This document shows, in pieces, positions 6,082-31,526 of a stretch of 34,144 nt of DNA (the stretch's first letter is position 1; the number at the start of each line of letters is the position of its first letter). Both the position numbers and the translations under genes were made by a program. This DNA is from Alphaproteobacteria bacterium. GTDB taxonomy: Bacteria; Pseudomonadota; Alphaproteobacteria; Caulobacterales; Aquidulcibacteraceae. The stretch is taken from assembly GCA_027484265.1 (NCBI GenBank), contig JAIXTH010000023.1, forward strand, positions 1 through 34,144. Reading direction: 5' to 3'. The notes under the pieces are model-generated. The model was not told the DNA's origin. It worked only from the letters and a program-made list of their open reading frames with translations, and ran no database searches.

Positions 6082-6144
6082 GCGACCTGGATACCACCGG
6101 GTCGCCGCCCACCAAGGGGCGATCCGGTCAGACAGAGTTTCCCG

Positions 6145-6180
6145 CGCGGGGACCGGATCGTCCGGTCCCCGCGTTTGTTT
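6145..6180 (+). terminator. intrinsic terminator of rplU-rpmA
   Basis: A perfect 13-bp GC-rich stem (6145-6157 with 6161-6173), loop TCG, is followed directly by TTTGTTTT. It lies about 65 bases after the rpmA stop and before the acetyltransferase genes, so these probably form a separate transcription unit. Confidence 0.93.
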
Positions 6181-26532: not shown

Positions 26533-26555
26533 GATCGGCCCGATCAGTTTTTCTT
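26533..26555 (+). terminator. terminator of DUF3576-leuS-lptE-holA, overlapping the convergent gene
   Basis: A short stem GATCG/CGATC (26533-26537 with 26541-26545) is followed by AGTTTTTCTTCTT. The T-rich tail is at the same time the last Lys/Asn codons of the minus-strand gene. The stem is short but the tail is strong. Confidence 0.6.
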
Positions 26556-28052
26556 CTTCGGCTCGCCCCAATAGGGCTCGTTCGGACTGCGCGGCGGGGG
26601 TGGTGGCGCGCGCCGTGCTGGCGGCGGCGGTGGCGCTGGTCTGCGGGCGGCAGCCGGTGGCGGCGGCGAGGGTCGGCGCGCAGCTGGAGGCGGCGGGGGG
26701 GACCGGCGGGCCGCAGCCGGAGGCGGCGGTGCCGGGCGGCTGGCGGCCGGTGGCGGCGGTGACGGTCGCCGGGCTGCAGCGGGCGGCGGTGAGGACGGCG
26801 CCGTCCAGCCAGGCTCCCCCGGGCGCGCGGGCGCTGCTCCGCTGGCGCCAGCCGCTGCGGGCAGGGTCGGCGGCGGGGGAGGCGATGCGGGCGGCGCAAC
26901 CACCCGGGCCGGTTCTTCCGGTGGCAGCGTGGGTGGCGGCGGCGGAGGACTGGCCGCTGCTGGCGGTGAAGGCGGAGCCGGAGGTGCCACGCGCGGTGCC
27001 CCGCCCCGCGTTGAAGTCTGCTGCTGGCCCGATGGGCGGGACAGGTCCACAGGTCGCCCGGCGGCCGGGGCAGCGGGCCTGGCTGCCGGATCGGCGGGTG
27101 GCGGTGTCGGCGACACAACCGGCTGCAGCGGCTTGCGGAACCGCAGTGTCATGCGGTCGCTCTCGCCGATAGCGCGGTATCGGCTGTTGTCGAAGCCGGG
27201 ATCCTCGGGCTGGCCCACCGGCGAGGTCCGCAGGACAGGTGGCAGGGTCCAGACACCGAATGGATGGTCCCGTGTGTCGCGCGGATTGGCGTTGACTTCC
27301 GAGCGGCCGATGAACTCGAAGCCGGCCTCTTCGGCCATCTGGATCACGAAGTCCTCGCGGACATAGCCGTCACTGGCGAGCGGGTCCTGCGGCTCGTCCG
27401 GACTGGCACGGTGGTCCTCGATCCCGAGGATCCCGCCAGGCTTGAGCACGGCAAACATGTCGGCAAAGGCCTTCTCGCTCCAGCCCTGCGCCACCCAATT
27501 GTGCACATTGCGGAATGTCAGCACCGTATCCACGGAACCGGGAGGCCCCAGAGCCCCGGACCGGGGGCCGAACGGCACCACAGTCACCGAGCCGAACACA
27601 TCCGGGTTGCCCGCAAACCGACCCGTGAAATCGTCCACCAGCCGACGCACGGCTGCCGAGCCGCTGGAAGCGGCGTCGAAGTGGGCCGCAATCAGACGCC
27701 CGCCACCGACCTTGAGATAGGGCGCGAGGATGGAGGTGTACCAGCCCTGACCCGGCCAGATCTCGATCACGGTATCGGTCGACCGGACACCGAAGAACTG
27801 CAGTGTCTGCAACGGATTGCGAAAGCGGTCGCGCTCTGGGTTGATGCGGCGCGGGCCGCTGATCGCATTGACCAGGCCGATGCGGTCGGCATCTGTCAGG
27901 ATCGGCACCGGCGCTGCCGGGCCGTCTCCACCAGCGGGGTTGGCTGTCATGGTGCCGGGCTGCGTCGCAGCCTCCTGGGCAAGCGCCAGTGCGCCGCCAA
28001 GGGTGGCAGTCATGAGAGCCGTGCCGGCCAGCGCCCAGGAACGCAGCCTCAT
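26544..28052 (-). CDS. exported class I methyltransferase-like protein with a long Pro-rich tail
   Basis: A 502-residue protein. It has a signal peptide (about 1-25, ending ALALAQ), then a methyltransferase-like domain (about 50-307) with a SAM-type motif VIEIWPGQGWYTSILAPYL near residue 95 and TVLTFRNVHNWV near 177. This matches the predicted methyltransferases of the COG4798 type, which are often exported. The usual family end (MTLRFRKP) falls at residues 301-308. Here it is followed by about 190 residues of Pro/Ala/Arg-rich low complexity (PPPPAAARRP-like repeats), ending NEPYWGEPKKKN. Whether an exported protein can meet S-adenosylmethionine is doubtful, so the enzymatic role is open. Confidence 0.82.
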   Translation of the reverse strand: MRLRSWALAGTALMTATLGGALALAQEAATQPGTMTANPAGGDGPAAPVPILTDADRIGLVNAISGPRRINPERDRFRNPLQTLQFFGVRSTDTVIEIWPGQGWYTSILAPYLKVGGGRLIAAHFDAASSGSAAVRRLVDDFTGRFAGNPDVFGSVTVVPFGPRSGALGPPGSVDTVLTFRNVHNWVAQGWSEKAFADMFAVLKPGGILGIEDHRASPDEPQDPLASDGYVREDFVIQMAEEAGFEFIGRSEVNANPRDTRDHPFGVWTLPPVLRTSPVGQPEDPGFDNSRYRAIGESDRMTLRFRKPLQPVVSPTPPPADPAARPAAPAAGRPVDLSRPSGQQQTSTRGGAPRVAPPAPPSPPAAASPPPPPPTLPPEEPARVVAPPASPPPPPTLPAAAGASGAAPARPGEPGWTAPSSPPPAAARRPSPPPPAASRPAPPPPAAARRSPPPPPAARRPSPPPPAAARRPAPPPPPARRAPPPPPRSPNEPYWGEPKKKN

Positions 28053-28785: not shown

Positions 28786-28848
28786 GGCCTGACCTGACAA
28801 GCTGGCTGTCCGCGCGCCCCTCCTCCACGCCGGATGGCCAGCCAACAG

Positions 28849-28886
28849 CGGCGCGGCAGGGCAACCTGCCGCGCCGTCTGCTTTCT
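28849..28886 (+). terminator. intrinsic terminator of hsp20
   Basis: A perfect 12-bp stem (28849-28860 with 28865-28876), GCAA tetraloop, then TCTGCTTTCT. It lies about 65 bases past the hsp20 stop. Confidence 0.88.
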
Positions 28887-28960: not shown

Positions 28961-30517
28961 ATGCGTGCGTGGTTGTTGGGTGCAGTTGCCGGTCTGGCGG
29001 CAGTTCTGGGTACGGCTGGCGCAGCCAGCGCGCTGCCGGTCAGCTTTGTCGATGGCCCCGCTGCCAGCGCCGGCGCCGTGGCGCTGCCTGTCGGGTCGGG
29101 CGGGCGGCTGGGTGCCCAGGCCCAGGCGGTGGATCGCGCAACCGGCGGCGCTGTCACCCGGGCCATTGCTGCCGCTGCCTTTTCCGGCAGCAACGGTGCG
29201 GTCCTGACCCTCTATGGCGTGGGGCCCTACAGCCGGATCATCCTGATCGGCACCGGTGCGGCGCCGCTGGACCGGGTGGGCCTTGAGGATTACGGCGGCC
29301 GCCTGGCCCGTGCCGTCGGCGAAGGCCGGGCCGAGCCGGTCGATGTCGTGGTGCCCGAAGCCGCCGACGGGGTGCGCGATGCGGCAGCGCTGGTGGCCCT
29401 GGGCGCTCGCCTGTCGAGCTACAGTTTCCCCGCAGTCGGGGTGACCCGCGAGGTATCGCCCGACCGGCGCCTGGTGATGCGGCCGGGCAGCGGCGCATCC
29501 GGGCAGGGCGAGGCCTGGACCCGCCGCTGGCAGCCGCTGGCCGATGGGGTGTTCTTCGCCCGCAACCTCATCTCCACCCCCTCCAACATCAAGAGCCCGC
29601 AGTGGTTCGTCGATGAAACCCGCAAGGCCTTCGAGGGCCTGCCGGTGACCATCACTGTGATCGATGAAGTGGAAGCTGCCCGCCTTGGCATGGGCGGCCT
29701 GCTGGGCGTGGGCCAGGGCTCGGTTCGTCCGCCCCGGATGATGGCCATTGTCTACAATGGCGCCGGCAGCGAGCGTCCGCTGGCCTTCGTCGGCAAGGGT
29801 GTCACCTTCGATACCGGCGGTATCAGCATCAAGCCGTCCGACGGCATGTGGCGCATGCGGTATGACATGGCCGGGGCCGCCGCCAGCGTGGGAGCTGTCC
29901 TGTCAGCCGCCAAGCGCGGGGTGCGGGCCAATGTGATTGCGGTGGTTCCCCTCGCCGAGAACATGCCGGATGGCAATGCGATCCGGCCCGGCGATGTGCT
30001 GACCGCCTTCGACGGCCAGACCATGGAGATCCTGAACACCGATGCCGAGGGCCGGGTGATCCTGGCAGACGCCAATGCCTGGGCGGCCCGCACCTTCTCG
30101 CCGGCGCTGATCGTCAATATCGCCACCCTCACGGGCGCCGCGCGCGGCGCGGTGGGCGATGACTATGCCGCGCTGTTCGCCCGCAATGATGCCACCGCCA
30201 GCCTCGTGGCGGCGGCAGGGGCAGCTGTCGGCGAAGCCACCTGGCGCCTGCCGATCCACCCGAGCACCTATGACGACCTGCGCTCGGACGTGGCGGACAT
30301 CCGCAATGTGGTGGAGGGCGGCGCCCCCGGCGCCTCGATCGGGGCTGCCTTCCTCGAACTGTTCGTGCCGGACACGGTCGAATGGGCCCACCTCGACATC
30401 GCGCCGGTTGCCTGGCGCACCAGCCGGGCTCCCACGGTGCCGGTCGGGGCAGTCGGCTGGGGTGTTCGCCTGTTCGACGAGCTCGCCACCCGGGCGGAAC
30501 AGCCCTCCGGCTCGTGA
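28961..30517 (+). CDS. M17 family leucyl aminopeptidase with signal peptide
   Basis: A 518-residue metallo-aminopeptidase of the PepA/LAP family, which removes N-terminal residues from peptides using two metal ions. The signature NTDAEGRVILADA is intact, as are GKGVTFDTGGISIKPSDGMWRMRYDMAGAA with the metal-binding Lys and Asp residues and the catalytic Lys. The N-terminal macro-like domain covers about residues 30-190. Unlike classical cytosolic PepA, it has a convincing signal peptide (MRAWLLGAVAGLAAVLG... with AASA as cleavage site, about residue 26), so it should act in the periplasm or outside. I chose the ATG at 28961, since the 20 codons before it in frame would bury the signal. A GAAGGGA site lies about 9-15 bases upstream. 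Confidence 0.92.
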   Translation: MRAWLLGAVAGLAAVLGTAGAASALPVSFVDGPAASAGAVALPVGSGGRLGAQAQAVDRATGGAVTRAIAAAAFSGSNGAVLTLYGVGPYSRIILIGTGAAPLDRVGLEDYGGRLARAVGEGRAEPVDVVVPEAADGVRDAAALVALGARLSSYSFPAVGVTREVSPDRRLVMRPGSGASGQGEAWTRRWQPLADGVFFARNLISTPSNIKSPQWFVDETRKAFEGLPVTITVIDEVEAARLGMGGLLGVGQGSVRPPRMMAIVYNGAGSERPLAFVGKGVTFDTGGISIKPSDGMWRMRYDMAGAAASVGAVLSAAKRGVRANVIAVVPLAENMPDGNAIRPGDVLTAFDGQTMEILNTDAEGRVILADANAWAARTFSPALIVNIATLTGAARGAVGDDYAALFARNDATASLVAAAGAAVGEATWRLPIHPSTYDDLRSDVADIRNVVEGGAPGASIGAAFLELFVPDTVEWAHLDIAPVAWRTSRAPTVPVGAVGWGVRLFDELATRAEQPSGS

Positions 30518-30559
30518 GTGTGACGGCTTCGCAACAGACAAGCGTGAAAAACATTTAAC

Positions 30560-30588
30560 TTGCGAAATCGCTGGCCTGTTGCTATCTT
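30560..30588 (+). promoter_or_regulatory. near-consensus sigma70 promoter of an intergenic RNA
   Basis: TTGCGA (30560-30565), exactly 17 bases, then TATCTT (30583-30588), in a locally AT-rich stretch. The expected start at about 30595 coincides with the first base of a hairpin. No coding start follows on this strand for about 1 kb. Confidence 0.7.
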
Positions 30589-30595
30589 GCCACTT

Positions 30596-30737
30596 GTGAG
30601 ACGGGCCTTGCCGCCGCGCTGTCCCCCCGCTGGTGGGCCGGGCCGGTCTCACGGCCGGAAAGTCCCCTCCGGCGGGCAGCAATGCCACCTCGTCCGGCGC
30701 CCGGTCCTGAAACAGGATCGGGCGCCTGTTCGTTTCC
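30596..30737 (+). ncRNA. candidate structured small RNA, about 140 nt, family not recognised
   Basis: Four elements can be seen. First, GTGAGAC (30596-30602) pairs with GTCTCAC (30646-30652), continued by GGCC/GGCC, closing a 57-nt domain with a C-rich interior. Second, GCCGGA/TCCGGC (30654-30659, 30668-30673) has an AAGTCCCC loop. Third, GGCA/TGCC (30675-30686) has a GCAA loop. Fourth, an intrinsic terminator closes it. It has its own promoter and lies between the aminopeptidase (plus) and a minus-strand amidotransferase, so it leads into no gene. The C-rich, CCUCC-like loop could pair with ribosome binding sites, which suggests a trans-acting sRNA. It matches neither SRP RNA, 6S RNA nor tmRNA as I know them. 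Confidence 0.62.
30696..30737 (+). terminator. intrinsic terminator of the small RNA
   Basis: A 14-bp stem (30696-30709 with 30713-30726, one G-T), AAA loop, then TGTTCGTTTCC. It also lies downstream of the minus-strand amidotransferase, where the stem could act, but without a T-tail on that strand. Confidence 0.8.
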
Positions 30738-30761: not shown

Positions 30762-31526
30762 TCACACCGTCAGGCGGGCGGGGTCCGCTCCCCGCAGGAT
30801 TTGCCCCATGGCCGCAAACAGCTGCCGGCTTTCGGGATTGGCTTGCGGGCGCCATTCGGGGTGCCACTGCACAGCCAGGACCGGGCCGGGCCCGTCGGTC
30901 TTGCTGAAGGCCTCCACCACTCCGTCGGGGGCGATGGCTTCGATGTGCAGGCCAGTTCCCAGCCGGTCAGCGCCCTGGAAGTGCACGGAATTCACCATCA
31001 TCTCGCGGGCACCATAGACGCCGGCCAGCACGCCGCCGGGCTGGATCGTCACGGGGTGGGCATGCTCGAACATCGCATCATAGGGCACGCCATCATCGGC
31101 ATGGTGCCGCAGGTCGCGTCCCGGCACCGACATGTCGCGCGCCAGCGTGCCGCCGAAATACACATTCAGCTCCTGAAAGCCGCGGCAGATCCCGAACACC
31201 GGCTTGCCCGCCTTCAGCGCAGCTTCCACCAGCGCTGCCGACATCGCGTCTCGCGCCGGATCAAACGGCCCTTCGGCATCCTCACTGGCGTCGCCATAGC
31301 GGTGCGGCTCGAGATTGGAGGGCGACCCGGTCAGCAGCAGGCCATCGAGCCGCGCCACCACCGTTTCCGCATCCACCTGGTCCGGCAGCGACGGCACCAG
31401 CAACGGGATCGCACCCACATGTGGCGACACCCCGAACAGATAGCGTTCCATCACCGCCTGCGCATGCTCGCTACCCACCGCGCGGCGGCAGCAGGTGAAA
31501 CCAAGGACCGGACGGGCTGCGGGCAT
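30762..31526 (-). CDS. class I glutamine amidotransferase, gamma-Glu-GABA hydrolase (PuuD)-like
   Basis: A 254-residue peptidase C26-type hydrolase. The nucleophile Cys114 lies in FGICRGFQELNV, and the His222/Glu224 pair in QWHPEW completes the triad. The early DGLLLTGSPSNLEPHRYG segment is typical for PuuD-like enzymes, which cleave gamma-glutamyl amides such as gamma-glutamyl-GABA in putrescine breakdown. Other putrescine genes (puuA, B, C) are absent, so the substrate is inferred. A possible GntR-type operator lies just upstream. Confidence 0.87.
   Translation of the reverse strand: MPAARPVLGFTCCRRAVGSEHAQAVMERYLFGVSPHVGAIPLLVPSLPDQVDAETVVARLDGLLLTGSPSNLEPHRYGDASEDAEGPFDPARDAMSAALVEAALKAGKPVFGICRGFQELNVYFGGTLARDMSVPGRDLRHHADDGVPYDAMFEHAHPVTIQPGGVLAGVYGAREMMVNSVHFQGADRLGTGLHIEAIAPDGVVEAFSKTDGPGPVLAVQWHPEWRPQANPESRQLFAAMGQILRGADPARLTV

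Follow-up and report, generated by a model that had tools for sequence, protein, structure and literature searches.

A probable RusT homologue at a displaced locus: a structured small RNA gene between pepA and Peptidase_C26 in an alphaproteobacterium

The small RNA (sRNA) RusT (CCNA_R0199) of Caulobacter crescentus, characterised in 2024, is a 118-nt transcript with four stem-loops that is encoded in the gap between lolA and xth (PMC11005374). It is bound by Hfq, which acts on stem-loop 3 (nt 72-87), and its seed lies in stem-loop 2 (nt 45-57, including C53). The RusT promoter is repressed by NtrX and induced by iron starvation or zinc, the repressed targets are several TonB-dependent receptor mRNAs and ompW, and homologues have been reported in Caulobacteraceae close to C. 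crescentus (PMC11005374). Here, we analyzed a stretch of 34,144 nt (hereafter the window; contig JAIXTH010000023.1 of assembly GCA_027484265.1) from a member of Aquidulcibacteraceae (Caulobacterales), in which an sRNA with its own promoter and terminator had been predicted from the sequence alone. This RNA is very probably a RusT homologue (probability roughly 0.85) that was displaced from the ancestral lolA-xth locus to the gap between pepA and Peptidase_C26, where about 140 nt would be transcribed from its own promoter, with control and receptor targets resembling those of RusT by analogy. Homology, structure, conservation of the promoter, and relocation are directly supported by the comparisons below.

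The promoter parts, hairpins, terminator, and C-rich loop of the original prediction were all located at window positions 30560-30737 by reading and folding the sequence. The RNA has the following parts.

30595..30733, + strand: small RNA of the RusT type, with a transcript predicted at about 139 nt
30595..30653, + strand: stem-loop 1 (fold), with outer stem GTGAGAC/GTCTCAC, an inner stem, and apical loop CUGUCCCCC at 30619-30627
30654..30673, + strand: stem-loop 2, whose UCCCC loop (30660-30667) corresponds to the RusT seed, nt 45-57 (fold, homologues, PMC11005374)
30675..30686, + strand: stem-loop 3, 4 bp plus a tetraloop (GGCA-gcaa-UGCC), at the position of the RusT Hfq-binding stem-loop (fold; helix 4 in the alignment A5, 84% paired)
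30696..30736, + strand: intrinsic terminator with a 14-bp stem (30696-30726) and tail TGTTCGTTTC (terminator scan, alignment)

The folding energy of 30595-30733 is -83.8 kcal/mol, compared with -66.3 +/- 4.3 kcal/mol for dinucleotide shuffles (z -4.1). The hairpin that had been placed at the transcript start is closed by GTGAGAC, which begins at 30596 and pairs with GTCTCAC. The two further hairpins appear in the fold, the second hairpin loop reads AAGUCCCC and then UCC, and 14 pairs were counted in the terminator, which ranks among the strongest in the window. The four stem-loops, the last being the terminator, are likewise present in 67 homologues and in the Caulobacteraceae-like homologue L168.

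Consistent with the earlier statement that no known family was recognised, a search of Rfam 15 at the gathering threshold gave no match, and relaxed thresholds gave nothing consistent. For 6S RNA (RF00013), there was no match in the window, and the source genome has its 6S RNA at G000:C28. Within the family (60 genomes), neither BLAST nor a covariance model built from this one RNA gave more than weak matches, and those inspected were coding or antisense. The RNA was also not found at the pepA loci of the closest orthologues examined; from these negative results, it would have looked like a singleton. Among 398 genomes of the order, BLAST gave weak matches near 40 bits, and several matches to pieces of the RNA were set aside as covering short stretches only. 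Sensitive realignment showed that three genomes (G106, G273, and G289) match over most of the RNA, sharing a CCCCCC(C)GCT loop, a CCGGAA..TCCCCTCC.GG hairpin, and the terminator. A covariance model of these three sequences and the window (R2) has matches in 185 of the 398 genomes, spread over 35 of 59 genera and each of the five families (E up to 0.05), and the weak matches near this threshold may include chance ones. The window scores 94 bits as a training sequence, and many independent genomes score 50-137 bits. This single model links the groups f1, f5, f4, f2, and the Caulobacteraceae-like f3, and the window RNA and f5 members match at BLAST level over the whole RNA.

The homologues with compensatory base changes that had been proposed as a check were thus found, and with these conserved, covarying relatives, the claim of a structured sRNA gene with its own promoter and terminator holds. 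In the alignment of 67 homologues (A5), which was fitted to the structure and is hence biased in its favour, 31 pairs are formed in 94.4% of the cells (78.5% in shuffled alignments), both partners vary in 29 of these pairs, and covariation scores 0.423, a value reached in 0 of 500 shuffles (0.143 after shuffling). When the partners are slid, pairing falls to 30-44%. In hairpin 1, the outer stem, which lies outside the model, stays paired while its sequence varies (GTGAGAC/GTCTCAC in the window, GGCCGCCGC/GCGGCGGCC in L158, and GGATGC/GCGTCC in L165). The stem-loop 2 loop UCCCCUCC is present in nearly all homologues. The stem-loop 1 loop, GCGYYGYCCCCCCGCU, is nearly invariant in the 55 homologues outside the Caulobacteraceae-like group (mostly GCGUCGUCCCCCCGCU or GCGUUGCCCCCCCGCU), and its C-run is absent from all 12 Caulobacteraceae-like members. 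Because this loop sequence is invariant on variable stems, it suggests a second seed.

The identification with RusT is based on locus and numbering. Most of the homologue loci, read at gene level with names taken from translated products rather than a profile search, have the order ftsK-lolA-[RNA]-xth or lolA-[RNA] followed by another downstream gene; the exceptions to an upstream lolA are the window copy and L175 and L176, which have no clear lolA in the list of open reading frames. Location between lolA and xth, which belongs to the description of RusT and is not a molecular property, therefore applies to most homologues and does not apply to the window copy. In the Caulobacteraceae-like L168, which lies between lolA and xth, there is one start position from which nt 45-57 coincide exactly with the loop of stem-loop 2, UCCCC has its first C at nt 53, nt 72-87 coincide exactly with a closed 5-bp hairpin, and the length is 119 nt; neighbouring start positions give a poorer fit to the RusT numbering. 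Since its homologues sit at the RusT locus and a Caulobacteraceae-like member fits the RusT numbering, the window RNA is assigned as a RusT homologue. It resembles RusT in having four stem-loops with a final intrinsic terminator, the UCCCC seed loop in stem-loop 2, an own promoter, and homologues at the lolA-xth locus. It differs from RusT in its place between pepA and Peptidase_C26, its length (about 139 vs. 118 nt), and a stem-loop 1 that is larger and has a C-rich loop at its apex. Accordingly, the description of the RNA as new did not survive, given that RusT has been known from the lolA-xth gap since 2024 (PMC11005374): it is a real sRNA gene that belongs, in diverged and relocated form, to the RusT family, being new in distribution, second conserved loop, and place, and of a kind already known.

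A class-wide search (R3) matched 32 of 385 genomes, including families outside the order. The ten best matches (L222-L231, all outside the order), with scores of 72-91 bits, are each adjacent to lolA, and ftsK, xth, or both can be seen nearby. Both loops of these ten are close to the f5 type. RusT-type RNAs are present beyond the order at the same locus, which is new relative to PMC11005374. The RusT-type sRNA spans the order and other orders, and its homologues, an alignment, and a covariance model are now available for an RNA that has no Rfam model. It is an even proposition, in our judgement, that these RNAs form an old alphaproteobacterial family at ftsK-lolA-xth, whose ancestor had the seeds GUYGYCCCCCC (stem-loop 1) and UCCCCUCC (stem-loop 2), both repressing TonB-receptor mRNAs, and that the RusT of Caulobacteraceae is a derived branch that lost the first seed.

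Upstream of the RNA, the following elements were recognized.

30532..30542, + strand: upstream box CAACAGACAAG, which fits the conserved CACA.GCAAG preceding the -35 element in homologues (37 upstream regions aligned)
30560..30565, + strand: -35 element TTGCGA (sequence), of which TTG is kept in homologues
30583..30588, + strand: -10 element TATCTT, 17 nt after the -35 element
30578..30593, + strand: imperfect inverted repeat GTTGC-TATCTT-GCCAC spanning the -10 element, a candidate operator with 4/5 pairs in the window

The TTGCGA-17 nt-TATCTT promoter is present as predicted, and "near-consensus" overstated its quality, as 8 of its 12 positions agree with sigma-70. Taken alone this match is weak. 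Because matches of at least this quality occur 18 times on both strands of the window, the promoter is better supported by conservation: the sequence TTGCTATCTTGCCACT is identical and at the same position in the relative L165, and the overall layout is common to most of the 37 aligned upstream regions. L163-L165 and the majority of f5 loci have the CACA.GCAAG box ahead of the -35 element, 50-90 nt upstream of the RNA core. The inverted repeat that spans the -10 element has 5/5 pairs in L159 and is weaker in other clades; NtrX or another regulator may bind it, NtrX being a guess from Caulobacter. By analogy with RusT, NtrX would repress the window promoter, and iron shortage or zinc excess would lift the repression. 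The comparisons thus add to what is described for RusT a further candidate seed, located in stem-loop 1, and a conserved promoter element as a candidate NtrX operator.

The proposal that the window RNA is transcribed, controlled by NtrX and iron, bound by Hfq, and directed at receptor mRNAs is made by analogy with RusT. Stem-loop 3 is present at the place of the RusT Hfq stem-loop, and Hfq may bind through it as in RusT. The mRNAs of outer-membrane receptors would be bound at their G-rich ribosome-binding sites by the UCCCC loop of stem-loop 2 and probably also by the UCCCCC loop in stem-loop 1, and their translation would thereby be blocked. The C-rich loop that had been likened to anti-Shine-Dalgarno loops is thus present, with a probable role of this kind. 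The source genome has 39 plug-domain (TonB receptor) matches, and several receptor leaders carry GGGGGA, GGGGAC, or GAGGGGA ahead of the start codon, complementary to the loops. In the leader L235, GGGGGACAG is exactly complementary to loop CUGUCCCCC of the window RNA. The leaders L235, L242, L245, and L258, whose G-rich ribosome-binding regions show long complementarity to the RNA loops, are the best candidate targets. With a lenient control in which every ATG or GTG close to the start was accepted, 11 of 31 TonB-receptor genes have GGGGA ahead of the start, compared with 27 of 207 among the controls (p 0.003, uncorrected, in a post hoc test made after the leaders had been seen), and generic ribosome-binding motifs are not enriched in receptors over controls (p 0.23). 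A first comparison with a stricter start choice, which gave larger differences biased by poorer start calls in the controls, was replaced by this one. The GGGGA enrichment is suggestive of targeting.

The post hoc nature of this count weighs against the RusT assignment, as do several other points. Mean duplex energies with TonB-receptor leaders are no different from those of shuffles, the window copy lies outside lolA-xth, and the identity is based on locus and numbering, not on the NA1000 RusT sequence. Moreover, the f1/f5 type and the Caulobacteraceae type are related by model scores of 30-52 bits. One alternative is that the RNA belongs to the RusT lineage by descent and acquired different targets and control here through divergence and relocation. 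The absence of the stem-loop 1 C-run from Caulobacteraceae-like members, the variation of the inverted repeat among clades, and the purely predicted status of the candidate targets would fit such a change; however, the stem-loop 2 seed is almost unchanged, the promoter layout is retained, and the complementary GGGGA is enriched in receptor leaders, and we regard this alternative as rather unlikely.

The neighbouring genes are as follows.

28961..30517, + strand: pepA (Peptidase_M17), the upstream neighbour, with the start taken at 28961 (longest open reading frame from 28901)
30762..31526, - strand: Peptidase_C26, the convergent neighbour and next gene after the RNA

The RNA occupies the gap between pepA and the convergent Peptidase_C26, which ends at 30762, so that the RNA strand has no downstream gene, as had been stated. 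In this arrangement, the element could instead belong to pepA as its terminator and structured 3' untranslated region, in which case it would lack its own transcript start and possibly yield a processed 3' RNA. The terminator is the first strong one past pepA, about 180 nt beyond the stop codon, and the promoter's 8/12 match is modest support for a separate start, but nearly all relatives have the RNA and the same promoter layout after lolA, not pepA, and the pepA loci examined in relatives are without the RNA. This explanation is highly improbable. In Candidatus Phycosocius bacilliformis (L005) and G014, pepA and Peptidase_C26 are likewise convergent neighbours, separated by about 3 kb, and G014 has the RNA at its ftsK-lolA locus (L164); a move of the RNA gene together with its promoter into a pre-existing pepA/C26 gap is therefore probable. 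The lolA of the source genome (L179, G000:C235) is on another contig, followed by murG after about 36 nt, and the RNA is absent there; the single further R2 match in this genome is a terminator match on the reverse strand. This lolA is located outside an ftsK-lolA-xth cluster, next to murG. Its departure from the cluster indicates that rearrangement affected the protein gene as well as the RNA. A contig error in this draft genome is an unlikely cause of the window location. The window thus provides a case of an sRNA gene relocating with its promoter and its structure kept.

That a GC-rich intergenic region folds well and resembles a promoter by chance has practically no probability left: such promoter matches do arise randomly and BLAST within the family found nothing convincing, but homologues in 185 of 398 genomes, covariation, a conserved locus, and the fold z of -4.1 refute it.

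Other alphaproteobacterial sRNAs share fewer features with the window RNA. GsrN of C. crescentus (PMC5869019) is likewise trans-acting, with a C-rich loop that pairs with G-rich mRNA sites, whereas fold, locus, neighbours, and promoter differ; on reading the window sequence, no general-stress (EcfG/sigma-T) promoter of the GsrN type was seen, the promoter being TTG-N17-TATnnT and conserved in homologues. The alphaR8 family (SisA-D; PMC12559287), linked to Hfq in Caulobacter, has a pyrimidine-rich core and a Rho-independent terminator as well, but its core UUUCCUCCCU is single-stranded and it usually adjoins an N-formylglutamate amidohydrolase gene, whereas the C-runs of the window RNA are hairpin loops. 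The core UUUCCUCCCU is absent from the window RNA, which has GUCCCCUCC in a hairpin loop. ChvR of C. crescentus (PMC6237742) also has its own promoter and represses a TonB-dependent receptor, but it is Hfq-independent, lies upstream of recF, and was reported as not conserved beyond C. crescentus. PmaR of Agrobacterium, considered for its C-rich seed, was rejected, as it lies between hypothetical genes and is limited to Agrobacterium and one Rhizobium strain.

Elsewhere in the window, positions 26544-28052 (- strand) encode a 502-aa protein with a methyltransferase-like N-terminal half (judged by eye), a long proline-rich tail, and no Pfam match. Further strong terminator-like stems of 12-14 pairs are present at 6144-6174 (+ strand), 28848-28877 (+ strand), and 10122-10095 (- strand), some of which may end genes.
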